NCBI GenBank assembly: GCA_947564735.1
Contig: CANOEC010000010.1
Span: 1 to 64,000, forward strand
Direction of reading: 5' to 3'
Source of the DNA: an uncultured Lachnospiraceae bacterium
GTDB taxonomy: Bacteria > Bacillota > Clostridia > Lachnospirales > Lachnospiraceae
Length of the DNA: 64,000 nt
How positions within the stretch are numbered: position 1 is the first letter of the stretch; the number at the start of each line of letters is the position of its first letter. The notes below the pieces were generated by a model. That model saw nothing but the letters and a program-made list of their open reading frames with translations. It had not been told where the DNA came from and did not search any database. The translations under genes and the position numbers were made by a program. Below, in pieces: positions 13,497-34,133 of this stretch.

Positions 13497-14849
13497 TCAA
13501 AACGGAACTGGAAAAGTGCCGCGGCACGTTCCCATCGAGTGGTCTATATACCGTTTACTCATAGCGCTAACAATTCCAAAATAGCAACTATAGAAAAATA
13601 GAATGCACACTCCAAACTCACCCGTTAATTTGAACAAAATATTATTCAAGGAAACCGGCAAAATGAAGTTCATTTTTTCATTCAGCAGCGGTATGCAGAA
13701 TAAAATAATCAAGAAAGCCATTATCATTGGAGAAGTCAGTTTCATTGCTATCTGCTGATTCACAAGTCTTGCTATCTGTTCCCTACTTTTTCCCATACAG
13801 CGCATAATCCGATTGTTTTTTGAATTTTGTCTGACCTCTATCATCAGCTGCAGAGATAATATTGAAAAATAAATAACCAAAAACACGATACAGATGCTTA
13901 TTTGTGAAGTTCCCATCCACTGCTGCACAGCCGTATCAAACAGCTCAAATTCCGGTTGCAGCATCAATATTCCCGTCACAAAAGAACAGCCGGAAAATAA
14001 AAAACATACGCAAAAAACAGCATTCATCACAGCTGCCGTCTTAAAATTTGACGTTACATTTGCCGTAATATATAGTCTGTCTTTTTGATATATTCCAACG
14101 GATTTCATTCGCCTGTACGCATATAAATAGCCAAACGCCCATTTGTAAAAGGAAAAGACAGATATTAACAAGGGTATTGCTACAACAGATATGGGATAAA
14201 CCATATACTCTCCCGGCAAAAAAACAATGCCACAAACACAGCCAATCAGGCACGTAAAACACAAAGTGAAGAGAATGCCCCATTTTTTATAATTTCCTGT
14301 ATTTTTTGCACCTTGATTGCGGTTTCTTTCATACATCAGTTCCCTTATTTGCAGCTTATTTATGCGTTGCCTCAGATGAAAAGAGCACACGGCTTCAATA
14401 AGGCAAAAAAACAGAAACGTGTAGAACATACTTTTAACATAAAGGAATCCGCAATGTTTCATTTCATGCAGCGGCTCGCGGAAATACCAAAATCCATATA
14501 CGGAAAAACCGATTGTTGCTCCTGCTATATAACAGCAAAAACCAATCAATAGGACTTCGCATAGGAATAGCCGGGTCAATTTCTTTTTTTCCATACCCAA
14601 TAGTAAATAGTTTGCAAATTCTTTTGCCCGCTGCTTTAGCATGAAAGTATCTATATATCCGACTAAAGCGATTTGAATGGCTGCGATTAACAATGGCAGG
14701 GAAATTACTTGAAAACCGGCTAGTTCTCCTATAATTGCTATACAATTAGATACCTCTATCATCGCCAAAAGGACGGTCATGACAGCAACGTATAAAAGGT
14801 AATTTATAAAAGACCGCTTGGCGTTGCGAATTGACAATTTCAAATACAT
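13497..14849 (-). CDS. FtsX-like ABC transporter permease (BceB/MacB type)
   Basis: 450-aa protein with roughly ten hydrophobic segments in two halves. LKLSIRNAKRSFINYLLY at the N-terminus is the family's signature entry helix. The FtsX core around 45-150 (LKQRAKEFANYLLLGMEKKKL) is repeated near 335-400 (NSKNNRIMRCMGKSREQI). The start directly abuts the stop of the upstream HTH-ATPase fusion and uses a Shine-Dalgarno sequence inside it, so the two are translationally coupled. Such pairs often serve peptide-antibiotic sensing or resistance; the substrate here is unknown. Confidence 0.82.
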   Translation of the reverse strand: MYLKLSIRNAKRSFINYLLYVAVMTVLLAMIEVSNCIAIIGELAGFQVISLPLLIAAIQIALVGYIDTFMLKQRAKEFANYLLLGMEKKKLTRLFLCEVLLIGFCCYIAGATIGFSVYGFWYFREPLHEMKHCGFLYVKSMFYTFLFFCLIEAVCSFHLRQRINKLQIRELMYERNRNQGAKNTGNYKKWGILFTLCFTCLIGCVCGIVFLPGEYMVYPISVVAIPLLISVFSFYKWAFGYLYAYRRMKSVGIYQKDRLYITANVTSNFKTAAVMNAVFCVCFLFSGCSFVTGILMLQPEFELFDTAVQQWMGTSQISICIVFLVIYFSILSLQLMIEVRQNSKNNRIMRCMGKSREQIARLVNQQIAMKLTSPMIMAFLIILFCIPLLNEKMNFILPVSLNNILFKLTGEFGVCILFFYSCYFGIVSAMSKRYIDHSMGTCRGTFPVPF

Positions 14850-15962
14850 CTAGCCTTCTCCCCCTATCCATTCTATTTTCTTCAAAATCTCCGCGAAAAA
14901 AGTCTGTTTATTTTCCTGTTCCCGATTTAAGGCAGCTTTTATTTCGCCGTCTTTCATAAACAAAATCCTGTCACAATAGCTGGCTGCCATGACATCATGT
15001 GTAACCATCAATATGGTTGCGCCATATTCCCTGCAAAGCATAGCAAGGGTGTCTAAAAGCTGTCTTGCCGCATGGGAATCTAATGCCCCGGTTGGCTCAT
15101 CCGCAAGTATCATATCCGGATTTACCACGAGCGCACGGGCGCAGGCGCAGCGTTGCCGCTGTCCTCCCGACACCTCATATGGGAATTTATCTAATATTGC
15201 CGATATATCCAGCTTTTGTGCCAAACTTTGAATCATTGGGCGAATGCTTTCTTTGGAAACCTCTTTAATTGTCAGAGCAAGCGCAATATTTTCATAGATA
15301 GTCAGAGTTTCAAGCAGATTGTATTCTTGGAAAATAAAGCCTAAATGCCTGCGGCGAAATTCTGCGGCAGCTTCTTCCGGCATATCTACTATATTTTGCC
15401 CGCTTATCCGTATCGTCCCGTTTGTCGGCTTGTCTATTGTGGCTATTAAATTAAGCAGTGTTGTTTTCCCAGAACCGGAAGCCCCCATGATGCCAACAAA
15501 ACTGCCGTGCGGTATCTGAAAGCTTACGTCATTTACAGCTAGTACACAATTATTTTCCGTTTCGTGTTCTTCCGAAACATTTTCGTGTCCTGCCAAAACA
15601 TTCTCATAGAGCTTGGAAACATTTTCAACCTCCAAAACGTTTTGTGATGCTGTATCACATGCTTTTGATTCCCATTTATCATGTCCTAACCAATTTGTAA
15701 TGACGTCCATAAGTACCTCATCTGCCTTTTCTTTCAACCTCTCTTCTGCAATGCACTCACCCGCAAATAGTTCATTCAAAGTAATGTCTAAAAGAGTACA
15801 TAAAGGCATAAACAAAGACAAATCCGGCATAGAACGTCCTGTTTCCCATTTTGAAACAGCTTTATCGGTGATTTTCAGTTTTTCTGCTAACTGGCTCTGC
15901 GTCCACCCCTTTGCTTTCCGGCGTTCGGAAATAAACGCTCCAATCTTAACTTGATTCATCAT
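14850..15962 (-). CDS. XRE-type HTH domain fused to an ABC ATPase
   Basis: 370 aa. Residues about 8-65 are a Cro/XRE helix-turn-helix (IGAFISERRKAKGWTQSQLA, DKAVSKWETGRSMP). After a linker at about 70-140, residues 112-350 form a MacB/BceA-type ATPase: Walker A GASGSGKTT, Q-loop IFQEYNLL, signature VSGGQRQR, Walker B MILADEPTGALDS, switch His VTHDV. All motifs for DNA binding and ATP hydrolysis look intact. A GGAGG site precedes the MMNQ start. The fusion suggests a transporter ATPase that also senses or regulates transcription, presumably of its own operon. Confidence 0.9.
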   Translation of the reverse strand: MMNQVKIGAFISERRKAKGWTQSQLAEKLKITDKAVSKWETGRSMPDLSLFMPLCTLLDITLNELFAGECIAEERLKEKADEVLMDVITNWLGHDKWESKACDTASQNVLEVENVSKLYENVLAGHENVSEEHETENNCVLAVNDVSFQIPHGSFVGIMGASGSGKTTLLNLIATIDKPTNGTIRISGQNIVDMPEEAAAEFRRRHLGFIFQEYNLLETLTIYENIALALTIKEVSKESIRPMIQSLAQKLDISAILDKFPYEVSGGQRQRCACARALVVNPDMILADEPTGALDSHAARQLLDTLAMLCREYGATILMVTHDVMAASYCDRILFMKDGEIKAALNREQENKQTFFAEILKKIEWIGGEG

Positions 15963-16799: not shown

Positions 16800-17918
16800 T
16801 TATTTTTTCTTAAAATAGTTATTGATTTGCTCCATTCTTTCCATCTGCTCTACATGAAATGGGCAGCGGGAATTGCAATGTCCACATTTCATACATTGAT
16901 CTGCCTTTACTTCCAGTTTATGGTAATGCTCATGCGCCAGCTTATCGCCAGCAACAGCAAGATCATAGTATTTATTGATAAGTCCTATATTTAATCCGGC
17001 AGGACAAGGCGCACAATGATTGCAGTAAACACAATGCCCTTCCGCATCATGTGGCGCAAATGTCCCTATAACAGAATAATCCTTTTCTTCTTGTGGTGCC
17101 ACGCAGAAAGAAAGTATTTTTTGTAAATCTGCTTTACCTCGTACTCCAAGCAAAACAGTCAACACACCCGGCTTATCCAAAGCATATTGAATACATTGAT
17201 TTTTTGTCAATTCTTTCTCAAAGGGAGATGTTCTTGCATCTAAGAGCTGTCCGCCGCTAAAAGCTTTCATCACGGAAATGCCTACGCCTTCTGCTTCGCA
17301 ACGGCGATACAATGCCATTCGCTCAGCTACACTGCCTACCGCATAGCTGTCCGTTGCATAATCCAGTTCTCCACCAGCATAGTCATAAGCAGGATTGATG
17401 CTAAACATCAGCATATCGAGTATCCCCATATCTAATACTTGGTTTACAAGTTTGGGCGTATGAGAAGACAGCCCAATATGACGTACAACTCCCTGTTTCT
17501 TCAAACGCAGGAGATAATCAATAATGCCATTCTTCTCTATCATCCTTAAATCAGATTCTCCATCAATACAGTGTATGAATCCAAAATCAATATAGTCTGT
17601 CTTTAATGTGCTTAGCTGCCAGTCCACGGAGCATTTCACTGTATCAAGATCTGCCGTCCATCCATACATCCCACCGCTATAATTAGCTCCGAAATGTATT
17701 TGAAAATACACTTTATCCCGGCAATCAGAAATTGCACGTCCATAAGCCGAAAATGGTTTTGCCTCTGAAGAAGCCATATCAAAATAGTTGATGCCGTTTT
17801 CCACCGCTGTCCGAATGGTTTCTTCAATTTCTTTATCATCCGCTGTTTGAATAGAGCTTGTTCCAATCCCTAATATACTTATTTTCTCCCCACCGTGCGG
17901 CAATGTACGATACTCCAT
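16800..17918 (-). CDS. Aldo/keto reductase with C-terminal double 4Fe-4S domain
   Basis: 372 aa. Residues 1-270 form an AKR barrel (GIGTSSIQTADDKEIEE, the DMASSEA region where the catalytic Asp/Tyr normally sits, FGFIHCIDG, SSHTP). Residues 290-365 carry two ferredoxin-type clusters: CVYCNHCAPCP and CMKCGHCNSRCP. This AKR-ferredoxin class is common in anaerobes, where electrons may come from iron-sulphur donors as well as NAD(P)H. Last gene of the redox operon, 11 nt after another AKR. Substrate unknown. Confidence 0.88.
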   Translation of the reverse strand: MEYRTLPHGGEKISILGIGTSSIQTADDKEIEETIRTAVENGINYFDMASSEAKPFSAYGRAISDCRDKVYFQIHFGANYSGGMYGWTADLDTVKCSVDWQLSTLKTDYIDFGFIHCIDGESDLRMIEKNGIIDYLLRLKKQGVVRHIGLSSHTPKLVNQVLDMGILDMLMFSINPAYDYAGGELDYATDSYAVGSVAERMALYRRCEAEGVGISVMKAFSGGQLLDARTSPFEKELTKNQCIQYALDKPGVLTVLLGVRGKADLQKILSFCVAPQEEKDYSVIGTFAPHDAEGHCVYCNHCAPCPAGLNIGLINKYYDLAVAGDKLAHEHYHKLEVKADQCMKCGHCNSRCPFHVEQMERMEQINNYFKKK

Positions 17919-17929
17919 AAACTATCCTC

Positions 17930-18787
17930 TCACTTTCCGCTGAACACAGGGAACACGCTATGCTCACCGTAATTTTTGATATGCTCCATATTTTTAAGAT
18001 TTTCCATATCCGCATCCGATATAACAAAGTCCACCCCTGTATTTTCTTTCATGTGTACTGGTGATGACGTTTTTGGAAGAGGAACCGTGCCAAGTTGCAA
18101 GCAATACCGGATACATAATTGTGCCACTGTCACTCCATATTTCTTTGCCATTTCTTCAATATGGGGGTGTGCTAATATAACACCATGAGCTACGGGAGAA
18201 TATGCCTCAACCACCATTCCTTTACTTTTTGAATATTCAATCAAATCAAACGGTGTGTTGCTAATATGTATTAACAACTGGTTTACCATAGGTATAATCC
18301 GACAGTCAGCCACCAGATTGTCTATATCTTCTTTTTTGAAATTAGAAATGCCGATAGAGCGTATTTTTCCCACCTTATATGCATCTTCCAACGCCCGCCA
18401 TGCAGCCCGGTTTCCGTCAACATAATCGCCGCCTCGGAAATCTGCCCAAGGCTGTGGCGCATGAATCAGCATAAGATCAATGTAATCCACATCCATCAGT
18501 TTTAAGGAGTTGTCAATAGAGGAAACCGCTTCTTTATAACTTTTTACCTCTGCCGCCAATTTAGTTGTCACAAATAATTCCTCTCTTGGAATTCCACAGG
18601 TACGGATGCCTTCTCCCACACCCCGTTCATTTCTATAAGCCTGCGCCGTATCAAAATGACGGTAACCAAACGCCACAGCATCCCGAACTGCCTGCGCTAC
18701 CTTGTCATCATCTATAAACCATGTGCCAAGTCCCATCTTTGGAATTTCTACACCATTTTTCATATTATAGCTTTTATCCATAATCAT
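17930..18787 (-). CDS. Aldo/keto reductase (AKR family, 2,5-diketo-gluconate reductase-like)
   Basis: NADPH-dependent carbonyl reductase, about 285 aa from the ATG at 18787, chosen for the AAAGGA upstream and because the protein then begins MIMDKSYNMKNGVEIPKMGL. The catalytic tetrad is visible: Asp and Tyr in HFDTAQAYRNE, Lys in FVTTKLAAE, His in LMLIHAPQPW. The C-terminal cofactor segment around PLPKTSSPVHMKENTG matches the family. Cytoplasmic. Lies between the CMD-cupin gene and the Fe-S AKR, suggesting consecutive steps or shared inducer. Substrate not predictable. Confidence 0.9.
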   Translation of the reverse strand: MIMDKSYNMKNGVEIPKMGLGTWFIDDDKVAQAVRDAVAFGYRHFDTAQAYRNERGVGEGIRTCGIPREELFVTTKLAAEVKSYKEAVSSIDNSLKLMDVDYIDLMLIHAPQPWADFRGGDYVDGNRAAWRALEDAYKVGKIRSIGISNFKKEDIDNLVADCRIIPMVNQLLIHISNTPFDLIEYSKSKGMVVEAYSPVAHGVILAHPHIEEMAKKYGVTVAQLCIRYCLQLGTVPLPKTSSPVHMKENTGVDFVISDADMENLKNMEHIKNYGEHSVFPVFSGK

Positions 18788-18815
18788 AATAAAATTTTCC
18801 CTTTCCTTTTCCCTT

Positions 18816-19571
18816 TTATTTACATTTGCCATACTGTTCATCATCCACCGGCTCAAGCCATTCATTGCTTCCGTTCTCGCCGGGAACTTCTACTGCCAAA
18901 TGGGTAAACCAACTATCCGCTGCTGCCCCATGCCAGTGTTTGACTTCCGCTGGAATGTTCACCGTAGTGCCGGGTGTCATCAATATGGGTTCTTTACCCC
19001 ATTCCTGATAATAGCCACGTCCCGCCAGACAAACCAATATCTGACCGCCGCCTTTGTCAGCATGATGGACATGCCAATTATTCCGACATCCCGGCTCAAA
19101 GGTCACGTTGAACATCGGCACCTGTTCCAGAGAAACCGGAGCGATATAGCTTTTCCCCGAAAAATACTGTGCCGGTTTTTCATTGAACTCACCAATTGGG
19201 AACGCCATACTTCTTTCATGAGCTGCTCTTGCCACATCCTCAGTATTTTCATTACCCCAAATCTGTGTGGCAAGCCGAAATGCTGCCCATGCCTTAGACC
19301 ACCCTGCATAAAATGCCGCATGGGTAATGATTTCCGAAATTTCTTCTTTGGTAATTCCATTAGCCTTCGCTGTCAGCAAATGTGCCCTAAAAGATTCGTC
19401 TGTCAATCCCTGCGACATCAATGAAACTAAAGTGACCAAACTACGGTCACGCAGAGACAGCTTATCCTCCCGATTCCACACCTCACCAAATAGCACATCG
19501 TCATTCAACTGTGCAAACTTCGGGGCAAATTCCCCAAGTTGATTCCTTCCTGCTGTTTGTTTGATTGACAT
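18816..19571 (-). CDS. Carboxymuconolactone decarboxylase-like domain fused to a cupin
   Basis: 251 aa. Residues about 25-110 form a CMD/AhpD-like helical domain (GEVWNREDKLSLRDRSLVTL, AHLLTAKANGITKEEI, WAAFRLATQIW) without a CXXC redox pair. Residues 140-235 form a cupin with metal ligands in NWHVHHADKGGGQ and KHWHG. Such CMD-cupin proteins often travel with AKRs and flavodoxins in Clostridia. A quinone or aromatic-related enzymatic role is suggested by the CMD family but not shown. Start ATG at 19571, 19 nt after the flavodoxin lipoprotein. Confidence 0.85.
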   Translation of the reverse strand: MSIKQTAGRNQLGEFAPKFAQLNDDVLFGEVWNREDKLSLRDRSLVTLVSLMSQGLTDESFRAHLLTAKANGITKEEISEIITHAAFYAGWSKAWAAFRLATQIWGNENTEDVARAAHERSMAFPIGEFNEKPAQYFSGKSYIAPVSLEQVPMFNVTFEPGCRNNWHVHHADKGGGQILVCLAGRGYYQEWGKEPILMTPGTTVNIPAEVKHWHGAAADSWFTHLAVEVPGENGSNEWLEPVDDEQYGKCK

Positions 19572-19590
19572 TATAAATCCCTCCTATTTT

Positions 19591-20331
19591 TTATTCTTCT
19601 TTTAACTTGTCTAGCCAGCTTAACAAATCTTCTTTTGCAGAAGCTACGTCATCTTCATACACATCAAAAACATTATCCGAAATAATTGCTGACTCCGGTA
19701 ACGCTGCACTAATATCCTGCACACTTCGGGCAAGTCCCCCTGTCCCGTGCGAGCAGAACAGATAAATTTCTTTATCTGAGAGTTGATTTTCCTCAATAAA
19801 TGAAAGAATCGCCATAGGACAGCTATACCACCAATTTGGATAACCTAAAAACATCACATCGTACTCATCTATGTTTGAAACCGTCTGTAGTAATTCAGGA
19901 TGTATCCCATCTGTCTTTTCCTGATTGGCACGGCTCAGGCACTCATCCCAATCAGCAGGATACGGTTCAGTTACTTTAATAGCAAAAAGCTCTCCTTGTG
20001 TTTCCTCGGCAATCCAAGATGCTAACATGGCAACATTTCCCGGTGCCTTTACGCTTGCAGAAGTTACGGCATCGACATCACTTGTTACTGTATTTTCAGC
20101 CCATGTGAAATATGCTATAAGAATTTTCCCCTGCTTCTCATTCCCCGAAGTCGCTTTATCTTCAGATTGTGGCAAGGTTTCAGGTTTTTCATCTTTTCCA
20201 ATCTCTACAATACCCGTACCATCCGCATACTCATTATTATTTTCTCCCTGTTTTTTTCCCTCTGCCTTGCTACAGGACACAAGACTAATCACAAGCAGCA
20301 AAGCCGGCAAAATATGATAGATTTTCTTCAA
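19591..20331 (-). CDS. Flavodoxin-domain lipoprotein
   Basis: 246 aa. A lipoprotein signal (MKKIYHILPALLLVISLVSC, Cys at 20) and a charged linker to about residue 68 are followed by a flavodoxin domain (ILIAYFTWAENT as the FMN phosphate loop, FLGYPNWWYSCPMAI, FCSHGTGGLARS). Flavodoxins are normally cytosolic; the lipobox predicts that this one sits on the outer face of the membrane. One of four such proteins in this 12-kb cluster. A stem-loop separates it from the MATE gene. The redox partner is unknown. Confidence 0.87.
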   Translation of the reverse strand: MKKIYHILPALLLVISLVSCSKAEGKKQGENNNEYADGTGIVEIGKDEKPETLPQSEDKATSGNEKQGKILIAYFTWAENTVTSDVDAVTSASVKAPGNVAMLASWIAEETQGELFAIKVTEPYPADWDECLSRANQEKTDGIHPELLQTVSNIDEYDVMFLGYPNWWYSCPMAILSFIEENQLSDKEIYLFCSHGTGGLARSVQDISAALPESAIISDNVFDVYEDDVASAKEDLLSWLDKLKEE

Positions 20332-20371
20332 ACCATCCTGCCTCCATAATGATACATGAGATTTTTCTCCT

Positions 20372-20413
20372 GCGTGAGAACTTGTAACGAGCGATTAGAA
20401 GTTCTTCTCACGC
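20372..20413 (-). promoter_or_regulatory. Intercistronic stem-loop at the end of the MATE gene
   Basis: GCGTGAGAACTT (20372-20383) pairs with 20399-20413, with a 3-nt bulge. It overlaps the MATE stop codon at 20408. There is no T-run, so an mRNA-processing or stability element is more likely than a full terminator. Confidence 0.45.
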
Positions 20414-21754
20414 TATTACCTGAAACTCTTTCCATTTTCCCGATTTTTCCCTCCACGCAAAAATAATTGCCCGTAACACCCAGTCGCATACCATTGCCAC
20501 CGCAATGCCAATTACCCCCATATCAAATACAATTCCCAAAAGATAAGACAACAACAAACGGACAACAATTGTAGAGAATACAGAAATATACATGGTAAAC
20601 TTTACATCCCCCGCAGCCCGAAGTCCATTAGAAAGTGCGCCTGAAAACGGAAAGGCAACTGCATTAAATACATTATGAATCAGAACAAGCCAAATAATGA
20701 GCTGTTTCGTTTCCAGAGCCAGTGAATAAAATTTTAGGAAAAGGGGTGTCAACAAGAAGATCAACAAATTCCATGCTGATGAAATCAACAGTGTCATTTT
20801 TGTAAGTTTCTTAAAATAATACTCCGCAGCTTCCGTATCATTGTTTCCCATGCACTGACCGATCACGGTAATGAATGCCGGTCCCATTGCAACCCCCGCC
20901 AACGCTGCCAATGACCATATACTTTGGGCAACACCGTTTGCGGCAATCTGATAAGTACCAAAAAGTGCAACAATACTGGAAAGCGCAACTTTAACTAACT
21001 GAAAAATCCCATTTTCCATACCATTCGGGATTGCTATGTTCAAAATACTTTTCATCATGTTTTTATCCCATCTGAAAATCCATAGGGGAGAGTAGACCAC
21101 GGCACTTTTTTTCCGAAAGCAAAGCACTGTAATCACAATGGCTGAAAACATCCGGGCAATGAAAGACGGCCATGCAACCCCTGCAACTCCGGCATTTAAC
21201 ACGAACACACCCACCACATTTCCGACAATATTAATTACATTGGATATTACCGATATATACATCGTCACATTCGTTTTGCCAAGACTCCGGTAAATTGCCA
21301 CACCAGAATTATAAACGGCAAGTGCCGGATAGGAATAAGCAGATATTCTTAAGTAAGTGACACACGCCGCCATGACGGAATCCTCCACCCTGCCAAACAA
21401 AAGGGATAGCATCGCTTGATTTCCAATTAATACCGCCACAGCGATAATAACTGAAAAAATAGTGGAAAAAGACAAAAGCTGACTTGCAGACTCCCCTGCA
21501 CGTTCCATTTCTTTCCTGCCTATGTACTGGCTGATTACAACCGCACCGCCGGAAGCCAAAGCAGTAAACAAGTAGATAAATATGGTGTTGAATTGATTAA
21601 CCAAAGAAACACCCGATACCGCATCCTCTCCTGCGTAACTGATGACCAAAGTATCTGCAAGTCCTACAAGCATTACCAGAAGCTGCTCCATGAATAGCGG
21701 GATAACTATTTTTCTTAAATCACTACTTGTAAATGTTTTTTTCTTTACATCCAT
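20408..21754 (-). CDS. MATE family efflux transporter
   Basis: 448-aa membrane protein with twelve predicted helices in two similar halves, the MATE (NorM/DinF) layout. Family-like segments include PLFMEQLLVMLVGLADTLVI at the N-terminus, ASGGAVVISQYIGRKE, and ANGVAQSIWSLAALAGVAMG opening the second half. It would export drugs or metabolites using a sodium or proton gradient. Starts 9 nt after the FGE-flavodoxin gene, so it is part of the redox operon and may export the product or toxin that the cluster handles. Confidence 0.9.
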   Translation of the reverse strand: MDVKKKTFTSSDLRKIVIPLFMEQLLVMLVGLADTLVISYAGEDAVSGVSLVNQFNTIFIYLFTALASGGAVVISQYIGRKEMERAGESASQLLSFSTIFSVIIAVAVLIGNQAMLSLLFGRVEDSVMAACVTYLRISAYSYPALAVYNSGVAIYRSLGKTNVTMYISVISNVINIVGNVVGVFVLNAGVAGVAWPSFIARMFSAIVITVLCFRKKSAVVYSPLWIFRWDKNMMKSILNIAIPNGMENGIFQLVKVALSSIVALFGTYQIAANGVAQSIWSLAALAGVAMGPAFITVIGQCMGNNDTEAAEYYFKKLTKMTLLISSAWNLLIFLLTPLFLKFYSLALETKQLIIWLVLIHNVFNAVAFPFSGALSNGLRAAGDVKFTMYISVFSTIVVRLLLSYLLGIVFDMGVIGIAVAMVCDWVLRAIIFAWREKSGKWKEFQVIA

Positions 21755-21763
21755 CTTTTTCTC

Positions 21764-23286
21764 CTACTCCAAAATCTCGTTGGTTCGTAACCATTCTGTT
21801 ATATCCTCTGACAGACTGCTCCCTCCCGAATAGTGGACGGACAATGCTTCCCCCATTGATGCATCGGGTGCTAACTTTGCAATCGCCGTCAGACTCTGCC
21901 CAAAGCGTCCCCCGCCGTGGGAACAGAAAGGTATGATTGTTTTCCCTAAAAAATCATATTCCTCCAAAAAGGACGCAATCGGCATGGGGATGGACGCCCA
22001 CCAGTTCGGGTAACCCAAAATAATGGTATCATAATCATCCATATTCTCCACATGGGCAGCAAGCTCCGGGCGGGCCTGTTCATTCTGATCACGCTGCGCC
22101 TCATCCAGAACGGTATTGTAATCATCAGAATAGGGATTTACCAATTCAATCTCAAACAGATCCGCGCCTGTCTGCGCCTGAATTTCCTGTGCAATCCCTC
22201 TGGTATTTCCGCCCCATGAAAAATAAGCAATCAGGACCTTACCGCCGCCACTTTCCTCACTCTGCATATCTGCACTGGCAACCACTCCACTGCCTGCAAT
22301 CCCCCTTACCAGACGGATTCCTATATTAAAGCTGCCTTTGTCCTCTGCCAATGTAGCACGGTAAGCGCTGCGCATATTCTTGGCAAAATCATTCCAGCCT
22401 CCGCCACGGTATACCCTGAGGGTTCCCGTACCTGCTCCTGTTGGATCAGACACAGCCTCCGTGCCATAATCGCCGTAATAATCCCAGACCCATTCACCCA
22501 CATTGCCGTGCATATTGTACAGTCCCCATGCATTTGGCGAAAAACTGTCTACCGCAACCGTAGTCTGCCTGTACTCTCCCGGTTTTGTTGTCAGGTTCCC
22601 CTGTGTAAAGTAATTGTCCTCAATCTCGTATGGATAATGTCCGTAATAGTTTGCTTCTTCCGCACTGATGGAATTTTCTGTGTTGAACGGCGTTTCCGTT
22701 CCTGCACGGCAGGCATATTCCCACTCTGCCTCAGTAGGCAGCCGGTATCCGTCTGCCCCCTGTCCCAAAGGACGCTCTGCCCATCAATCGTATAAGCAGG
22801 CGTCAGCCCCTCCCGCTCGCTGCGTGTATTGCAGTAACGGATGGCATCCAGCCAGGATATATTTTCCACCGGAAGCCCGTCACCTGAGAAACTGGAGGGG
22901 TTCTCGCCCATGATCTCCTGATACTCTGCCTGTGTCAGCTCATAAATGCTCATATAGAAGTCGCTGACTGTAACCGTATGCTGTGTTTCATCCTCTGAGC
23001 GCCACGCTTCCTCCGCCGGACTGCCCATCCAGAACGTGCCGCCCGATATCAGTACAAAGTCTTCCGGCATGGAGTCGGGACTGATTAACCTCTCTGACTC
23101 ATCCGCTGCACCATTCTCCGTTGTATCACGCTTCACATTGTTTTCTTTCTGCGTTTTCACCATATCTTTCTCCTGCGATATACTGCTTCCTCCGAAAAGA
23201 GCATCCTGCTGTTCTTCCGTTTTTCCACATGCACACAACAGAAAGAATATGGACATTATCAAAATAGAAATACCAACCTTTTTCAT
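21764..23286 (-). pseudogene. Lipoprotein: formylglycine-generating-enzyme-like domain plus flavodoxin domain, frameshifted
   Basis: Two overlapping frames form one gene. From ATG 23286 the product has a lipobox (FFLLCAC), a linker and the first half of an FGE-sulfatase/SUMF1 domain (GGTFWMGSP, SDFYMSIYELTQAEYQ, VENISWLDAIRYCN). The frame breaks at a run of five C (G on the coding strand) at 22756-22760; one more G restores GADGYRLPTEAEWEYACRAG, GNVGEWVWD and RGGGWND. Residues about 345-505 are a flavodoxin domain (VLIAYFSWGGNT, LGYPNWWASIPMPI, FCSHGGGRFG). Either a true pseudogene, phase variation or a sequencing error. The FGE-flavodoxin fusion is unusual and its substrate unknown. Confidence 0.85.
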
Positions 23287-23320
23287 ATAATATTTCCCTC
23301 TCTTTTTACGCCGGACGATT

Positions 23321-24903
<1,583 letters not shown>

Positions 24904-24926
24904 TCACTCCTTAAACTTATTTTATA

Positions 24927-25655
24927 TTATCTGTCCTTAATGATTCGATTCTGCTTGCATGGATTTCTCCAGCCATGCTGCCATAAAGCAATTACTTTCA
25001 TTAAGTAATAACCGATAAAAATCCACAGTCCCATCATGGCTGTATTTTCCAGAATGATAATAATCCCACTTTTATCATAATCAAGAAAAGCAAATTCCAC
25101 TTTCAAAAACATAGAAGATAAAATGTCAGCCTGAAGGAAACAATATGCCCCATATCCGGCAGCAAAAACGCCAAGCAGCTGTAATGCCCGGTGGAGCGCC
25201 TGCGCCATTCTTCGGTCAAACGAAGCAAGCCTGCCCATTCCATTACGGAGCATCCCAGTCACCATTCCCCAATGCAGCCCTAAATGTATGCTCATCAGCA
25301 CAAACCCCCAATAAGAAGCTGCCAAGTGCATTATCCTTGCCAAAGCCATTCCTTCCTTTATCGGAAGAAAAGCAAACACATGACGTGACATGATAACCCC
25401 ACTATAAGCCAACGAGAACATTGCTGCCAGAAGCGCAAAATTTACAACCGTCTGTATGGCTCTTAAGGACTTATATTGTCCCTTAAATAAACTTCCATAC
25501 CATTTAATATTTAAGAGATTGTGAATAATAAACAATAGCACCATCGCAGTACCTATCCACTCATGAAGTGTTTCCCCTGTTACCTGATATGCCATCAGCA
25601 GAAGCAATAGTACCGTCATTAAAAAATCAACACTCCGTCTTATTTTCAACTTCAT
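24927..25655 (-). CDS. DUF4405 cytochrome-b-like membrane protein
   Basis: 242 aa from the ATG at 25655 (MKLKIRRSVDFLMTVLLLLL). Five predicted membrane helices and several helix-associated histidines (ETLHEWIG, FIIHNLLN, RIMHLAASYWGF, MSIHLGLHWG), consistent with the DUF4405 family, whose members resemble heme-binding cytochrome b subunits. It could pass electrons across the membrane to the neighbouring flavodoxin lipoproteins; that link is inference from position. The longer frame to 25757 overlaps nothing conserved and is rejected. Confidence 0.8.
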   Translation of the reverse strand: MKLKIRRSVDFLMTVLLLLLMAYQVTGETLHEWIGTAMVLLFIIHNLLNIKWYGSLFKGQYKSLRAIQTVVNFALLAAMFSLAYSGVIMSRHVFAFLPIKEGMALARIMHLAASYWGFVLMSIHLGLHWGMVTGMLRNGMGRLASFDRRMAQALHRALQLLGVFAAGYGAYCFLQADILSSMFLKVEFAFLDYDKSGIIIILENTAMMGLWIFIGYYLMKVIALWQHGWRNPCKQNRIIKDR

Positions 25656-25717
25656 AGCATTTATCTCCACTTCATAAAGTGATAATCCGCTTGCCTCCAT
25701 AAGCAAGCGGATTGTTT

Positions 25718-26485
25718 TTACTCCGCCGTAATATCTAACCCAAGACCATTGAGCCATTCTACAATTTGTTCACGGGAGCTTCCGCCATTAAGTCGTTCAC
25801 CGGATAGCCACTCAGCTCCACTTGTCAGGCTTTCCAAATTTGTACCGCTTGAGCCGATACCGCTGCCACCCGATGTGCAGAAAGGAATTACTGTCTTGCC
25901 GTAAAAGTCATAGCTTTCCACAAAGGTACTCATAATTCTTGGAGCATCGCCCCACCAAATCGGATATCCGATAAACACAATGTTATACTGCTCCATATTT
26001 TCAACTGAACCCGATATTGCCGGACGGGCGTCAGCATCATTCATTTCAATCGAGCTTCGGCTATTATCATCATGGTAATCCAAATCCGCATCCGTGTACA
26101 TTTCCTCCGGCACAATCTCGTAGAGTTCAGCCCCTGCCACATCAGCAATCAGTTCTGCCACGCCTTCCGTTGTATTTGTTGCAGAAAAATAAGCCACCAA
26201 TACTTTTGTACCCTCACTCGCACTGTTAGCCCTACTTTCATCGGCTTCATCTGTCTGCCCGTCTCCGCCCGCCGGCTCCGTAACTTCAGTAAGATTTTCC
26301 ACCTGCAAATTTTCTGTCGGACTATCCTCTGCTGCGGAATTTTCGCCCGCATTGGAATCTCCCGGTACTCCGGCTGTATTCTCCACTGTGTACTCAACAG
26401 TATTTTCCGGTTCTTCTTTACCTCCACAAGCCGTAAGTGAAACAACCATCAACAAAGTTACTACTCCAACAATAAATCTTTTCAT
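25718..26485 (-). CDS. Flavodoxin-domain lipoprotein with long acidic linker
   Basis: 255 aa. Signal peptide and lipobox (VVSLTACGG), then about 70 residues rich in Glu, Asn, Thr and Ser, then flavodoxin residues 93-250: VLVAYFSATNTTEG (FMN loop), FIGYPIWWGDAPRI and FCTSGGSGIGSS. The linker suggests that the domain stands off the membrane. Second of the lipoprotein flavodoxins; the DUF4405 gene follows after 62 nt. Flavodoxin_4-type, possibly an NAD(P)H-independent electron carrier or quinone-type reductase outside the cell. Confidence 0.88.
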   Translation of the reverse strand: MKRFIVGVVTLLMVVSLTACGGKEEPENTVEYTVENTAGVPGDSNAGENSAAEDSPTENLQVENLTEVTEPAGGDGQTDEADESRANSASEGTKVLVAYFSATNTTEGVAELIADVAGAELYEIVPEEMYTDADLDYHDDNSRSSIEMNDADARPAISGSVENMEQYNIVFIGYPIWWGDAPRIMSTFVESYDFYGKTVIPFCTSGGSGIGSSGTNLESLTSGAEWLSGERLNGGSSREQIVEWLNGLGLDITAE

Positions 26486-26501
26486 CTTTTTTCCTCCATT
26501 T

Positions 26502-27641
26502 TTATTCTACTAATGAAAATGTAATGCTTTCTCTGCTTTCAAAAGTTTCAAATACAGAAAGCTCAGATGTTACCCTCCCTATCGGAATCACATCTACTGT
26601 GAGATTCGGATTATCAGTTTGTGCATAAAAAATTGCCATATTATGATGTGCTTCGCAGTAGGTAATATCTCCATTCGCAATATTTTTCTGTCCACCCTCC
26701 AAATTTTCCGGATAAAAATCAACACCACCATAGTATTCCCTTCCGCCATACCCACTCATTGAAATCGTCAGTGGAAAATACTCTTTTATTTCCCCGGCAA
26801 GCGCTGTGTCATAAAGTACTCCGTCCAGCACAACATCCCCTATAGTAATTTTGATTGCGGTCTCGCCACTTTCATTGTCGTTTTCCACATTTCCTGATAT
26901 TCTAATCATCTTTAACCAGTTATCCACAGTGTCTTTAGAATTGGGAACATCTTTTGCTTCTATTGCAAGTCCGTCCAGCAGTTTGTCCGTATGGCTTGCT
27001 TCCTTGATTGTATTATAGCTTCCACCTGCCCCATATCCGTCATGGGTACAAAAAGGGATAACTGTTTTTCCTGACAAATCATATTCATTCAGAAAAGATA
27101 ACACTGCCTGCGGAACATCCGTAGCCCAAACAGGATATCCAATAAACACAGTATCATACTGCGAGACATCAAGATTGCTTTCCAAAAGCGGCGGCAGATA
27201 TTCCTCGTTCATTTCTGCATGATTTTGATCCCTCAACTCATCGAAATCCACCGGATATTTCTCCTTTGTCTGAATCAAATGAATTTCCCCACCCACATTA
27301 GCCTGAATCATTCGGGCTAGAAATTCTGTTGTTCCATAAGCGCCATCATCAACGACAATACTCGCAGAAGTTGTCGCATCTACATCTGACGGATACTCCG
27401 TATTTCCCCACCGGGAAAAATAAACAATTAATACTCCCTGTCCTTCCTCTGTCACATAATCCATATTACTACTTTCTATTTCTACTGGCTGTGAAGCTGA
27501 GGAATCAATGTAGTCTTGTTCTGTTTCATTGTTCCCATAGTTGCTTTCCAACTCCATATTACTGTCTATTCGGCTGTTTCCACATCCAAAAAGAGAAAAG
27601 GTAATTATGATAGAAAACAACATATACACTCCTTTTTTCAT
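26502..27641 (-). CDS. Lipoprotein: flavodoxin domain fused to a cyclophilin-like domain
   Basis: 379 aa. Lipobox SLFGC near residue 20, linker to about 65, flavodoxin domain 68-245 (VLIVYFSRWGNTEYPSDVDATTSAS, FIGYPVWATDVP, FCTHDGYGAGGS), and a C-terminal beta-barrel of the cyclophilin_like family at about 258-378 (IKITIGDVVLDGVLYDTALA, YYGGVDFYPEN, NPNLTVDVIPIGRVTS). The long insertion after the FMN loop resembles that of the 19591 protein. Fusion of these two domains is seen in clostridial proteins of unknown role. Starts 9 nt after MerR. Confidence 0.87.
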   Translation of the reverse strand: MKKGVYMLFSIIITFSLFGCGNSRIDSNMELESNYGNNETEQDYIDSSASQPVEIESSNMDYVTEEGQGVLIVYFSRWGNTEYPSDVDATTSASIVVDDGAYGTTEFLARMIQANVGGEIHLIQTKEKYPVDFDELRDQNHAEMNEEYLPPLLESNLDVSQYDTVFIGYPVWATDVPQAVLSFLNEYDLSGKTVIPFCTHDGYGAGGSYNTIKEASHTDKLLDGLAIEAKDVPNSKDTVDNWLKMIRISGNVENDNESGETAIKITIGDVVLDGVLYDTALAGEIKEYFPLTISMSGYGGREYYGGVDFYPENLEGGQKNIANGDITYCEAHHNMAIFYAQTDNPNLTVDVIPIGRVTSELSVFETFESRESITFSLVE

Positions 27642-27650
27642 TGCCGCCTC

Positions 27651-27998
27651 CTACTTATTTTTCTTTATTTCATGAATCAGATAATCCAGCCGATCCAAAG
27701 ACTGCTGCTTACCATGAATTTCATCCAGCAACTGAAACCTGCATTTACGCAAAATACGCATTCGCTCTTGCTTATGTTCCTCGCCTCTATCTGGCAGTTT
27801 CAAAAAATTCACCAATACCTTATCTTCCATTCCAATACCCAACAAAAAATGAATCAATTCAATTTGCTGAATATCTGCGCTCTGATAGTCCGACACGTTA
27901 TTTTTCCTTTTTTTATACCTTAAAAACCCTTTTTCTTCATACTGCTTCAGTTCTTCCGCCTGAATGCCGCATTGTTTACTTACTTCCTCTATTGTCAT
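27651..27998 (-). CDS. MerR-family transcriptional regulator
   Basis: 115 aa from ATG 27998, giving MTIEEVSKQCGIQAEELKQY. The N-terminal winged helix (to about 70) is followed by a short coiled coil. No metal-binding cysteine cluster is visible, so a metal-sensing role is unlikely; related regulators precede flavodoxin genes and respond to electrophiles or oxidative stress. Probably controls the flavodoxin genes immediately downstream. Confidence 0.82.
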   Translation of the reverse strand: MTIEEVSKQCGIQAEELKQYEEKGFLRYKKRKNNVSDYQSADIQQIELIHFLLGIGMEDKVLVNFLKLPDRGEEHKQERMRILRKCRFQLLDEIHGKQQSLDRLDYLIHEIKKNK

Positions 27999-28049
27999 AA
28001 TCCACTCCAAATTATCAACAAGCTTTACAATTATTCTACTATGCAAAAT

Positions 28050-28090
28050 GGGTGTAACAGGAAAGCGCTTCTTTCTTTTCTGTTACACCC
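28050..28090 (-). terminator. Strong hairpin after LysR gene
   Basis: Eleven-base perfect arms GGGTGTAACAG/CTGTTACACCC (28050-28060 and 28080-28090) with an inner GAAAG/CTTTC pairing, about 60 nt after the LysR stop on the minus strand, followed by ATTTTG. It likely ends the lysR transcript and separates it from the MerR operon. Confidence 0.6.
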
Positions 28091-28151
28091 ATATTCTAAA
28101 GTTTATTCCAAACAATAGCAAATACTTATCTTTTATATATAAGTTATGCCT

Positions 28152-29033
28152 TTAGAGCATAATTTCTTTTTTCATAAATTCAATAAATTTTGCCGCCGCA
28201 GGACTAAAAGGCTGTCCTCTTTTCCACGCCAATACACTGTTTGCAGACAGCGCTGGATTTAAGGGACGATAGGTAATCTCTGTTTTATCCCAAAGCGGCA
28301 CGGAACCCTCAATAACCAGCGCATACCCCAATCCCTTTCTTACCATAATTGCACTATTCGTACTCAGATTGCTTGTAAACAGAACATGGAGCTTTTGGTA
28401 TGTGTTTCCAAACCAGTTCGCAAGTTCACTCTGTACGCTTAATCGCCTTGGCAATATAATCGGCAAATTTTCCAAGTCCCTAGCAGATATACTTGCTTTT
28501 TCCGTCAATGGATCATCCGGCTTCATTAGGACTACCCAGCGTTCCTTATTTTCCAAACGTATAAATTCAAATTTTTCCGTATCAATCGGCTCTAGCAAAA
28601 CACCTATATCCACCAGCCCTTTTTCCATTTGTTCCTTAACCATGTCAGCATTTGCCGTAAAAATATCATAAATGACGAGAGGGTATCTATTACTGAAAGA
28701 TTCAAGTAAATCCGACAAAAGACCCACAGCCGCTAATTCGCCGCTACCAAGCATGATTTTTCCCTCTATAAGTTCCTCCTGCTCCGTCAGTTCCTCCTCT
28801 GTACGGTCAACCAATGCCAATATTTCTTCTGCACGGCGTCTCAATAACATTCCCTCGTTCGTAAGAGTAATTTTCCTTGAACCTCTGGAAAAAAGTTTGA
28901 CACCGACTTCATTCTCTAACTGAGCTAATTGACGGCTGAGCGTCGGTTGCGTTATATGCAGAACCTCTGCGGCACGATTAATTCCTTCCTCTCTTACCAC
29001 TGTAAGAAAGTATCGAAGCACCCTGATTTCCAT
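28152..29033 (-). CDS. LysR-family transcriptional regulator
   Basis: 293 aa. Canonical N-terminal helix-turn-helix (MEIRVLRYFLTVVREEGINRAAEVLHITQPTLSRQ at 1-35, KLFSRGSRKITLT) and a periplasmic-binding-protein-like effector domain at about 90-290. Regulators of this look sit beside AKR/flavodoxin gene sets in Clostridia. It has the same orientation as the cluster and begins it. Its upstream region borders the transposon remnant at 29.1 kb. Effector unknown. Confidence 0.9.
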   Translation of the reverse strand: MEIRVLRYFLTVVREEGINRAAEVLHITQPTLSRQLAQLENEVGVKLFSRGSRKITLTNEGMLLRRRAEEILALVDRTEEELTEQEELIEGKIMLGSGELAAVGLLSDLLESFSNRYPLVIYDIFTANADMVKEQMEKGLVDIGVLLEPIDTEKFEFIRLENKERWVVLMKPDDPLTEKASISARDLENLPIILPRRLSVQSELANWFGNTYQKLHVLFTSNLSTNSAIMVRKGLGYALVIEGSVPLWDKTEITYRPLNPALSANSVLAWKRGQPFSPAAAKFIEFMKKEIML

Positions 29034-31047: not shown

Positions 31048-31510
31048 TTATTGGTCTTTTATCAAAATACGGCTACATTTATATTCTGATATGAAAAAAA
31101 TCGTAAAAATAGAGCTACGATAAACCTGATTACCGTAGCCCTGCTCTATATCAATACTAAAATGCATCAAATCGTTGTCCGGCGGTTCTGTGGCATTCTT
31201 CGATACAGCTTCTTCCTGCATATTCTCTGTACCCTGCATCTCTGCTCCCATTTCTGCCGGATTGGAAGCAGTGGGCGAAGCTGCCCCGCCTATTACTGCA
31301 TTTCCATTATTCGTACCGTTTGCCAGTGCCTGACCGCAAACCATGCCGCCATGCGCCTGTCAGAATAATCATTGACCGCTTCTATCACAAATTTATTCTG
31401 TGACTTGAACATCTGCCGTATCTTTGGGAGTGCAGGAGTTCCCACGCCCTGCACTCGTCCTCTTTTTCCATGTTAAAACGGATATTGTGGTTTTTATTCA
31501 GATACCCCCT
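31048..31510 (-). pseudogene. Small partner gene of the ParM-like actin, frameshifted twice
   Basis: The pieces FNMEKEDECRAWELLHSQ, then (after one missing A at 31423-31425) KIRQMFKSQNKFVIEAVNDY, then (after one missing base at about 31344) MVCGQALANGTNNG can be joined into one protein of about 150 aa. A small protein of this type regularly follows ParM-like genes in clostridial mobile elements, where it may be the DNA-binding adaptor. No canonical start codon is seen close to the ParM stop. A gene of unknown exact function. Confidence 0.6.
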
Positions 31511-32458
31511 TATCCGGCTGATGCCATTGCTTTCTGCCTGCGGAGTTTCATATAGCAGAAATATTCATAGCCTTTGGCGTTTGCCCGCATATCATGGTTG
31601 AAAGTAACATTATCGCTGTCATAACTACCCACAAGCTCCACAATCTTTGCCCCGCCACCCATGACATACAGTTTCATAAGATTCGGATTATAGCCATGCG
31701 CTTTCAATTCCGCAAATATCTTATCCACGTAGGACTTTGCCGCTTCCTCCATAAGCGTCTTGTATTCATCCCCTATATCAGCTCTGCCATATTTGAGATA
31801 ATTTTCAATAATCTCTGCTGGAAGTTCCTCCACCTTTCTGTCTAAGATGTGGTCACGGATCACCTTAAAGCACTCGCCCACGCCTAGCCTTACCGTCCGC
31901 GACTTACTCTCGCTTGCCTTACCGTTATTAAGTACTATCACATTCATTGTCCTTACCAATATCCGCTACCATGTGCATCCCCTTAAAATCCGGCAGGCTC
32001 TCCGCTACCGCCGCATAACACTGCGGCATGACTGTACAGTCCACGATGTCAACCACATAACGCCTGCCCGCATACTTGTAATCTACATGGCGGTTCTGCA
32101 TCATATATTCCCGAAACGAATCCCGCTGTGTCTGCACCCATTTTAACGGAAGCCCCACCGCAAGGTGGAGCTTTGCCGTTGACAATCCTCTTGCATTTAA
32201 GTCCTTCGCAATGGCGGCGAGTGTAAGGATATAATTATCGTCATCCATGCTCTTTTCCGCCACAAAATCCTTATGCCCTTCGCCTATGGTGTAGTAGCCG
32301 CCCTCATATTCAAGAAAGTTTCTTGTAAAGATAGGCGGCTGGTCGCTCCTATTCACGGAAGTCGGAAAACAGCACCTTGCCGCCTTATAGTTCCCATATC
32401 CTGCATCCACGCCTAAAATAATTGTTCCGTTCATATTGTAATCCCTGATCTTTGTCAT
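31510..32458 (-). pseudogene. ParM-like plasmid-segregation actin, frameshifted
   Basis: Actin-fold ATPase used to partition plasmids or excised elements. From ATG 32458 (GAGGA upstream) the N-terminal half has the phosphate-1 loop in GVDAGYGNYK and LTLAAIAKDL, AVGLPL; the second phosphate loop VADIG is followed by a break at about 31953 where two missing bases would restore GNGTMNVIVLNN. The C-terminal half contains VMGGGAKIVE, the adenosine motif. About 316 aa when joined. Confidence 0.82.
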
Positions 32459-32559
32459 AAAAAAGTCCTCGCTTTCATAATTGTTGTTTTTAATAAAATT
32501 ATTTGCCATACTTCCGCTTCACTTCTTCTTTAGTCGGAAGGCTGCCATCTATAATAACC

Positions 32560-34133
32560 TTATTTTCTCCGTCTACCATAACCGCAACCTGCCCTGTACT
32601 GGCGGCGTTTCCGTTTCTTTACTTCCTCTGCAATTTCTTCCTTTGAAAGCTCCTGCGCCGGAAACTCCACTTTCCCGATATAATTTAAGAAAATCTCAAT
32701 CTCCTGCTGTTCCTTTTCATAATCGGAAGAAAGCATTTCGTAGCGCCTGTCCGGCATTTTCCCATTGCGTTGTCCTCATACACCTTTTTAATCAGCAGGT
32801 CAAGGTCTGCAAAACGTTTCTCTTTTTTCGCAAGGTCTGATTTCAGCCTTTTTACCTCGCCTTTGTCCCTGACCTGTGATGCACTCCGCATACTTTTTAT
32901 AAATGCTGTCTCGTCCATGCGGACGCTTTTTAAGGCATACTGTATTGTTTCAAGGATAAGCCGCTTTATGGCGTCCTCTGTTATGGAATGGGAACAGCAT
33001 ACTTTCCTGTTCTGCTTTCTGGCACTGTTGTAAGTGCCGCAGTTAAAGCCTGCGGATGTCCGCTCTGTTCCACCGTTTGGAATACCCCGCCAGTCCCTTT
33101 TTGCTCTTGTCGTACCCCTGCGGTAGTGCATTTTGCCACCGCAGTCCGCACAGTAGAGCATTCCGGTCAGCATACTTCCTTCTCCGCTAGTATCAAACCT
33201 GTGGACAGTTTTTCTTAATTCCTGCACCATATACCAAGTCCTGCGGTCTACGATTGCCTCATGGGTGTCACTGAATACCAATACCGAACTACTGTCATTC
33301 TTAATCTGCTTCTTATTTTTATAAGTTTCCTTATGGCTTCGGAAATTCACAGTATCACCCATATACTCCGGTCTTTCCAGTATCCGTGCAACCGATCTGC
33401 CCGTCCAGTTATAGGGGGTTTCAAAATCACACATGGTCTTATAATTCCCCCTGTTTCTGGTTGCCTGATAATAAGACGGTTTCTCAACTTTTTCCTCCGT
33501 AAGCCGCTTTGCAATCTGGAACGGTCCCATGCCCTCCACGGTCAGCCGGAATATCTTCCTCACAACCTCCGCCGCCTCATCGTCAATAAGCCAGATGTTT
33601 TTATCATCAGGGCTTTGCACATATCCATATGGCGGGTTGCTCGTGATCGGTTTTCCCTCTTTCCCTTTTGCCCGTAAAACTGCGGTAATCTTCCTGCTGC
33701 AGTCACGCAGATACCATTCGTTCATGATATTCAAAAAAGGGGCGAATTCACTGCTGGTGTTGTTAGTACTGTCAACACCGTTGGAAACAGCAATAAAACG
33801 TACACCCTTTTCACGGAAGAATACCTCTGTGTAGAATCCTACCTGAAGGTAATCCCTCCCGACACGGCTCATATCTTTTACTATGACTGTGCTGACATCG
33901 CCTTTTTCAATCTGGCTTAACATCTGCTTCCATCCCGGTCTTTCAAAACTGCCGCCGGAAAATCCGTCATCCGTAAAATGCACCGTGTTCGTGTACCCGT
34001 TATTTTTTGCGTAATCCTCCAGCATTTTCTTCTGGTTGACTATGCTGTTGCTGTCCCCCGCAAGATCATCGTCCCTTGAGAGCCGCTCGTAAAGAGCTGT
34101 TATTCTGTTGTCACCAGCCGTCCTGTTGTTCAT
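32560..34133 (-). pseudogene. Large serine recombinase (TnpX type), frameshifted and internally deleted
   Basis: Starts at ATG 34133 behind AAAGGAG. The resolvase domain has YERLSRDDD with the catalytic Ser after the Arg, and VKDMSRVGRD; the recombinase domain follows, then a zinc ribbon (YCADCGGKMHYRRG ... CGTYNS) and a coiled coil. One missing base at about 32757 breaks the frame after NAMGK; the continuation PDRRYEMLSSDYEKEQQEIEIFLNYIGKV is shorter than in full-length relatives, where some 60-80 residues lie between EKEQ and the ...IFLNYIGK tail. The C-terminal helper region is therefore probably deleted. A 27-codon ORF at 32499-32579 follows in another frame. Confidence 0.85.

Follow-up and report, generated by a model that had tools for sequence, protein, structure and literature searches.

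An enlarged variant of a published flavodoxin and DUF4405 electron-transfer system, probably working outside the membrane of an uncultured Lachnospiraceae bacterium

A 64,000-nucleotide stretch of DNA from an uncultured Lachnospiraceae bacterium (contig CANOEC010000010.1, positions 1 to 64,000; hereafter the window) carries on its minus strand, from 29,033 down to 16,800, a single run of 12 co-directional genes that includes four flavodoxins with lipoprotein signals and a DUF4405 membrane protein. The question that this locus raises is what flavodoxins are doing on the outer side of the membrane and how they would be supplied with electrons. Our analysis indicates that the cluster probably operates in the same way as the published ApbE/Flavodoxin_4/DUF4405 extracytosolic electron-transfer systems, with a mixture of covalent and non-covalent flavodoxins and with apbE located elsewhere in the genome. 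It is an enlarged variant of a known system, the core of which was already published in 2024. The gene content, lipobox signals, flavinylation motif, histidine pattern, conservation and gene fusions described below are all read directly from sequence.

The genes follow the order LysR, MerR, flavodoxin/cyclophilin-like lipoprotein, acidic-linker flavodoxin lipoprotein, DUF4405, GH43, a lipoprotein with a formylglycine-generating enzyme (FGE)-like domain and a flavodoxin, MATE, a plain flavodoxin lipoprotein, CMD-cupin, aldo/keto reductase (AKR) and an AKR-like protein with a 4Fe-4S dicluster domain. No intergenic gap exceeds about 80 nt except the one between MerR and LysR, which measures about 105 nt. 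An earlier sequence-only reading of this DNA had listed four lipobox flavodoxins, DUF4405, two AKRs, a CMD-cupin, a MATE exporter and MerR and LysR regulators on one strand with gaps mostly below 80 nt, and all of these are present where it placed them; it overlooked the GH43 gene (24891-23321), which sits between the FGE-flavodoxin and DUF4405. The four flavodoxin architectures that it distinguished are also found, namely a plain flavodoxin, an FGE-like domain followed by flavodoxin, a flavodoxin followed by Cyclophil_like2, and a flavodoxin with an acidic linker of about 70 residues. The window genome (4.52 Mb, 102 contigs) has seven Flavodoxin_4 matches, four of them in this cluster.

The DUF4405 protein, which probably starts at about 25655 (a start placed by alignment, in preference to that of the longest open reading frame (ORF)), is a membrane protein with four conserved histidines. 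His31, 45, 110 and 124 are invariant in 11 aligned sequences and follow the spacing HX13H, twice. DUF4405 is its sole Pfam match at E 0.001, and the DUF4405 profile retrieved nothing from the PDB by sequence. Among the best 80 of 352 relatives, the named ones are mostly labelled Lachnospiraceae or Clostridia, Schaedlerella arabinosiphila included. Huang et al. 2024 (PMC11334425) demonstrated heme b binding for a DUF4405 protein from another species.

Gene fusions provide the strongest evidence that DUF4405 works with exported flavodoxins. They occur in related loci, which we label L001 and so on and which are genomic stretches fetched nearly always around DUF4405 or Flavodoxin_4 genes and compared with the window. 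For example, DUF4405 and a motif-bearing flavodoxin share one 476-residue ORF in L010, and DUF4405, an FGE-like domain and a flavodoxin share one 745-residue ORF in L033. Both fusions have an extra hydrophobic segment after DUF4405, which would place the fused flavodoxin outside provided that DUF4405 consists of six helices with its N-terminus inside. In L039 (7992-9746), DUF4405 is joined to DUF362 via a segment that still resembles a lipoprotein signal, and this ORF may therefore represent two proteins. All three fusions come from draft or metagenome assemblies. A Foldseek search with a weak model of the L033 fusion returned flavodoxin and FGE folds and no cytochrome in the best 50 of 979 matches.

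As read from the translations, all four window flavodoxins begin with a basic n-region that leads through a hydrophobic stretch to a lipobox (Table 1). The earlier proposal that they carry out flavin mononucleotide (FMN) chemistry outside the membrane is supported as to placement; what it missed is that two of the four, the plain flavodoxin (DAVTSAS) and the flavodoxin/cyclophilin-like protein (DATTSAS), have an ApbE flavin-attachment motif just behind the first strand, between beta1 and alpha1. The other two are without it. In the available part of Huang et al. 2024 (PMC11334425), the insertion in Flavodoxin_4 is the site of ApbE FMN attachment, as confirmed for two Flavodoxin_4 proteins, and the motif is given in PMC12052999 as D-x-x-[S/T]-G-A-[S/T], whose last residue receives the FMN. 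The motif's D88 and last Ser (S94) are invariant in 11/11 aligned flavodoxin/cyclophilin-like proteins. FMN is probably held covalently on the last Ser of the motif in the two motif-bearing proteins, and probably non-covalently in the FGE fusion and in the acidic-linker flavodoxin, which is closely related to the FMN-bound 3KLB. Both family profile and fold assign the cyclophilin-like domain to the TM1367 type.

The association between export and motif extends beyond the window. We classed by simple rules 194 distinct flavodoxin ORFs from the gathered loci, each with an N-terminus and a domain of more than 110 residues; the export calls are crude regular expressions and nearly all loci had been chosen for DUF4405 or Flavodoxin_4. 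A lipobox was seen in 122 of these ORFs and a different N-terminal membrane segment in 15; the remaining 57 had neither. The flavinylation motif occurs in 47/137 ORFs with an export signal versus 2/57 without (Fisher p 1e-6), and both exceptions seem attributable to a failure of start finding or of the rule, as the one in L140 is seemingly N-terminally incomplete and the one at 15126 in L005 has a hydrophobic segment that the rule rejected. The class of 57 includes other rule failures, such as L032 and L007 with N-termini resembling lipoprotein signals, and also the window FGE-flavodoxin, which was entered by its second piece only and hence counted as having no signal. By architecture, 15/15 FGE-flavodoxins are without the motif and 11/15 flavodoxin/cyclophilin-like proteins have it.

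The gene set is also conserved. Scanning of 61 genomes, comprising 37 of the window's genus (its own included) and 24 of other families, gave 94 Flavodoxin_4 and 20 DUF4405 matches. For 16 of the 20 DUF4405 matches a Flavodoxin_4 match is no more than 5 kb away (no more than 1 kb for 11), where about 0.6% each is expected from density in the 37 same-genus genomes; for 16/19 DUF4405 matches in the genus the binomial P is ~5e-33 with matches treated as independent. A profile scan of genome contigs with the DUF4405 alignment, of which the best 80 of 352 confirmed relatives were kept, placed a flavodoxin within 3 kb in 61/80 loci and within the fetched stretch in 67/80. Neighbors were then counted with home-made profiles in a 6-kb radius in the 51 of these loci that have at least 4 kb on both sides, with the result that 43 have a flavodoxin; the accessory counts, which are without a matched control, are AKR 33, CMD 25, LysR 21, cupin 16, DUF362 14, MerR 12, MATE 11, cyclophilin-like 11, alpha/beta hydrolase 10, FGE 8, ApbE 8 and iron-type alcohol dehydrogenase (Fe-ADH) 7. 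Within the window genome, which served as a partial control, 6/11 AKR matches are within 6 kb of Flavodoxin_4, a neighborhood that covers 0.94% of the sequence (P ~3e-10, AKR pairs being non-independent), but only 1/3 CMD matches is.

Individual loci repeat much of the window arrangement. L032 (uncultured Clostridia) has the order LysR-MerR-flavodoxin-flavodoxin/cyclophilin-DUF4405-FGE/flavodoxin-AKR-flavodoxin-AKR/Fe-S-ApbE-CMD/cupin with small unassigned ORFs interspersed, and 9/14 window reference pieces are matched there at 45% identity or more. L028 (Lachnospiraceae strain X68) retains the window order of LysR, MerR, flavodoxin/cyclophilin, flavodoxin, DUF4405, FGE/flavodoxin, MATE and flavodoxin, and adds ApbE, a second FGE/flavodoxin and further flavodoxins. 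In L024 (S. arabinosiphila) the order is LysR-cupin-flavodoxin/cyclophilin-flavodoxin-DUF4405-MATE, with a short AKR piece in addition, and in L096 (labelled Deltaproteobacteria) an FGE/flavodoxin adjoins DUF4405. The co-occurrence of lipoprotein flavodoxins with DUF4405 and AKR genes elsewhere, which the sequence-only reading had staked its case on, is therefore found, both in the 16/20 DUF4405 matches near Flavodoxin_4 and in the L032 set. Its suggestion that DUF4405 offers a transmembrane electron path also gains support from this conserved gene set and the proximity of flavodoxins.

Together these features are consistent with the following mechanism. Electrons from a cytosolic donor would enter DUF4405, a bundle of roughly six helices in which the predicted heme-ligand histidines form two pairs, and would move outward to its outer face, where they would pass to flavodoxins held on lipid anchors and flexible acidic linkers and from there to an acceptor; we infer this direction, the donor and the acceptor, the loading of FMN and heme, and the roles of the extra domains. 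An ApbE protein of the genome would attach FMN to the two motif flavodoxins, and the other two would bind FMN non-covalently. The FGE-like and cyclophilin-like domains may serve as docking or substrate modules, and the Fe-S-tailed AKR-like protein is a candidate for a cytosolic partner in electron transfer.

The regular-expression rule detected no export signal on the window CMD-cupin or on either AKR, so all three are probably cytosolic. In alignments the first AKR has an intact catalytic tetrad, Asp-Tyr-Lys-His. The Fe-S AKR-like protein has an incomplete one, with Tyr replaced by Glu and Lys by His, and the same residues occur in L032; having lost two tetrad residues, it is better suited to electron transfer than to carbonyl reduction. 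A role of the FGE-like domain as a formylglycine-generating enzyme was considered and excluded. The catalytic cysteine pair of that enzyme lies near the C-terminus, and translation and alignment reveal no Cys in the C-terminal region RVYRGGGW...IRLVRG of the window domain.

Related clusters contain additional exported modules. DUF362 is fused to flavodoxin in L005 (7610-9247) and L066 (6353-8149) and occurs as a stand-alone lipoprotein in a number of related clusters. Flavodoxin lipoproteins fused to an esterase-like alpha/beta hydrolase are present in L005 (16662-18104), L008 (14244-15893), L020 (4414-6147) and L082 (3233-4897). AKRs with lipoprotein signals (L121 2246-3325, L004 3431-4510, L006 4177-5214 and others) are predicted to be outside, where NAD(P)H should be absent. 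L028 (1119-3869) encodes a predicted secreted 916-residue protein with three flavodoxin, two immunoglobulin-like and one cyclophilin-like domains, in which the immunoglobulin-like domains act as spacers and motif and no-motif flavodoxins alternate. The exported AKRs of sister clusters retain the tetrad, and 10/10 distinct lipobox-bearing ones have the nucleotide-loop Lys replaced by Gly, a replacement also seen in some AKR relatives without a signal. That such exported, normally NAD(P)H-dependent reductases run on electrons from surface flavodoxins as parts of a modular wire outside the cell, with the L028 protein as a possible wall-spanning relay, is an idea we consider rather unlikely.

Since no apbE was found in the window, we assign FMN attachment to one of the genome's two ApbE proteins, both of which have a lipobox by the regular-expression rule. 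One of them, encoded at C16:44775, is separated by roughly 8 kb from an FMN_bind gene that bears the motif in its classical form, DAISGAT, and belongs to an Rnf-like operon (named from ORF reading). The other lies in L001, a second cluster of this genome that contains LysR, MerR, AKR, cupin, ApbE, two flavodoxin lipoproteins, DUF4405 and a cyclophilin-like lipoprotein. Co-localization of apbE with DUF4405 is found in L001, L028 and L032 (where apbE spans two frames) and not in the window; if apbE clustering is strictly demanded, the window locus is not a full member of the published system, although in our reading it works like one.

The separation from apbE is one of several points that weigh against this reading. 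Position 5 of both window motifs is Ser instead of the canonical Gly, and a Gly-to-Ala change at that position in one fumarate reductase gave ~50% flavinylation, according to the available text of PMC12052999. The motif is absent from 90/137 flavodoxins classed as exported, so covalent FMN is not a general rule, and the contrast between exported flavodoxins showing signs of flavinylation and unflavinylated cytosolic ones, as discussed in the available part of PMC11334425, is qualified accordingly for the loci examined. Export signals were called by regular expression only. Four of the 20 DUF4405 matches in the 61 genomes have no Flavodoxin_4 within 5 kb, and 19/80 loci of the profile scan, some at contig ends, have no flavodoxin within 3 kb. 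No ferrochelatase match was found in the window genome and its AhbD matches are far below cut-off, so that heme would have to come from scavenging or from a synthetic route that escaped detection; weak AhbD matches are uninformative, as the model gave matches in 14/14 controls and was above cut-off in 1. Predicted structures scored a pTM (predicted TM-score) of only 0.46 and 0.55, no extracellular terminal reductase was identified in the window, and neither the FGE-flavodoxin nor the GH43 gene has an intact frame in the assembly.

Two other functions deserve consideration. The cluster may be an electrophile- or quinone-detoxification operon in which cytosolic AKRs, the CMD-cupin and MATE clear carbonyls or quinones, MerR and LysR act as sensors, and the surface flavodoxins are quinone or nitro/azo reductases. 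The frequent AKR, CMD, MATE, LysR and MerR neighbors of DUF4405 counted above would fit such an operon, as would the Flavodoxin_4 fold, which structure comparison finds to be common to FMN reductases and an azoreductase. However, the loss of two tetrad residues from the Fe-S AKR does not fit, and the fusion of DUF4405 to exported flavodoxins is left unexplained, so we regard detoxification as a tentative alternative. An equally doubtful one is surface respiration of diet- or host-derived acceptors, in which exported esterases, AKRs and other modules would release and reduce plant or host compounds and be fed by the DUF4405-flavodoxin chain. This is the function that the esterase-like, DUF362 and AKR lipoproteins of related clusters bring to mind, the first two also being fused to flavodoxin, and the GH43 gene in the window cluster, a GH3 gene in L005 and the Rnf-like operon of the window genome agree with it. 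Yet neither an exported esterase nor an exported AKR is encoded in the window, no relative of its broken GH43 gene occurs among the loci L001-L102 searched, and a quinone link is doubtful because the genome's only UbiA match adjoins a HAD-like gene (named from ORF reading).

The flavodoxins might also be decaying paralogues in a recombination hotspot that contains pseudogenes and forms no functioning system, which we judge to be very improbable. The FGE-flavodoxin gene (start ~23286, end 21764) has, as assembled, a frame shift near 22760 inside a short homopolymer run, a split that the sequence-only reading overlooked, and the GH43 gene is likewise interrupted by a frame change. Decay would account for two split genes within 3 kb, and for an apparent third at 31510-32509, near a serine recombinase. 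That third gene also hints at assembly indels, however, and breaks at short homopolymers also fit assembly error. Moreover, both FGE-flavodoxin pieces remain close to single-ORF homologues in L028, L030 and L032 (82-83% identity to the second piece, 51-57% to the first), and the remaining ten cluster genes keep open frames.

The features of the cluster are collected in Table 1. Beyond it, at 31510-32509, is the apparent third split gene, an actin-like gene of ParM type, one piece of which matches ALP_N and which seemingly continues in another frame; it adjoins the serine recombinase (32685-34133), and the two form a small mobile or plasmid-like stretch. A mobile-element origin of the cluster, suggested by these genes at 32-34 kb, was dropped without a direct test because related sets recur across many genomes. 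Past the recombinase, a Macro-domain protein is encoded on the plus strand (37183-38007). On the other side, a single ORF at 14850-15962 encodes an ATP-binding cassette transporter ATPase whose N-terminus forms a helix-turn-helix domain, and the gene after it (13497-14849) encodes an FtsX-type permease. Promoter-like elements numbered 44 versus 31.6 (standard deviation 5.9) in shuffles and terminator-like elements 15 versus 10.1 (standard deviation 2.9); these excesses of about 2 standard deviations are not used as evidence.

Table 1. Features of the flavodoxin and DUF4405 cluster, in gene order, with coordinates in the window
Feature	Coordinates	Strand	Basis and remarks
LysR-type regulator	28152..29033	-	Pfam HTH_1 + LysR_substrate; identity 75% in L003 and 69% in L032, heading related clusters
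MerR-type regulator	27651..28046	-	Pfam MerR_1; LysR-MerR order also in L001, L028, L029, L032
Lipoprotein, flavodoxin + Cyclophil_like2	26502..27641	-	Flavodoxin_4 E 2e-17; lipobox LFGC
Candidate ApbE flavinylation motif DATTSAS, residues 88-94, flavodoxin beta1-alpha1 insertion	27360..27380	-	Translation
Lipoprotein, flavodoxin (3KLB type), long acidic linker, no flavinylation motif	25718..26485	-	Flavodoxin_4 E 5e-60; 3klb E 1e-51; lipobox LTAC
DUF4405 membrane protein, predicted diheme b cytochrome	24927..25655	-	PF14358; four invariant His
GH43 beta-xylosidase-like gene, two frames as assembled	23321..24891	-	PF04616 in both pieces, GH43_C2 in second
Lipoprotein, FGE-like domain + flavodoxin, two frames as assembled	21764..23286	-	PF03781 in both pieces, PF12682 in second; Flavodoxin_4 at 21764-22768, E 2e-28; lipobox LCAC
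MATE-family exporter	20408..21754	-	PF01554; 82% identity in L028
Lipoprotein, flavodoxin with flavinylation motif	19591..20331	-	Flavodoxin_4 E 8e-22; lipobox LVSC
Candidate ApbE flavinylation motif DAVTSAS, residues 87-93	20053..20073	-	Translation
CMD-cupin protein, no export signal seen	18816..19571	-	PF02627 + PF07883
AKR, probably cytosolic, D-Y-K-H tetrad present	17930..18787	-	PF00248; start chosen by alignment
AKR-like protein, C-terminal 4Fe-4S dicluster domain, tetrad Tyr and Lys replaced	16800..17918	-	PF00248 + Fer4_8; alignment

If the electron-transfer reading is true, Clostridia that are usually seen as fermenters keep a heme and flavin chain that exports reducing power from the cell, and testable partners of that chain are suggested by the fusions and by the exported enzyme modules. 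Judged by title and the start of the abstract, the open-licence literature held nothing relevant on the flavodoxin/CMD/cupin/AKR/LysR combination, nor anything combining AKR with ApbE or Flavodoxin_4 with lipoprotein. Several known systems resemble parts of the cluster. Formylglycine-generating enzyme and the FGE-fold proteins of GldK/PorK/TvpA type share an FGE-type domain with it by sequence, but the window domain is without the C-terminal Cys of the enzyme, and its best PDB matches are the PorK/GldK lipoproteins. The MsrQ and PepSY membrane cytochromes that feed extracytosolic flavin domains (available part of PMC11334425) likewise have four heme-ligand His in a membrane bundle, whereas the window protein, compared by sequence only, matches DUF4405 alone in Pfam. 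The non-covalent FMN flavoproteins 3KLB, 4ICI and 4J8P from Bacteroides have family and fold in common with the window flavodoxins, which differ in having a lipobox and a long linker. The closest likeness is to the ApbE-DUF4405-Flavodoxin_4 system of Huang, Meheust, Barquera and Light (mSystems 2024, PMC11334425), the available part of which describes apbE-DUF4405 clusters as often holding flavinylated Flavodoxin_4. The sequence-only reading had proposed an extracytoplasmic flavin redox system; flavins outside, a DUF4405 path and co-occurrence are supported, and the core of the idea had already been published. The window shares with the published system a DUF4405 cytochrome, exported motif-bearing Flavodoxin_4 with the beta1-alpha1 insertion, and clustering of these genes in Firmicutes. 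It differs in having apbE outside the cluster, four flavodoxins of which two are without the motif, and fusions to FGE-like and cyclophilin-like domains, and it adds AKR, CMD-cupin, MATE, LysR and MerR genes to the known set.

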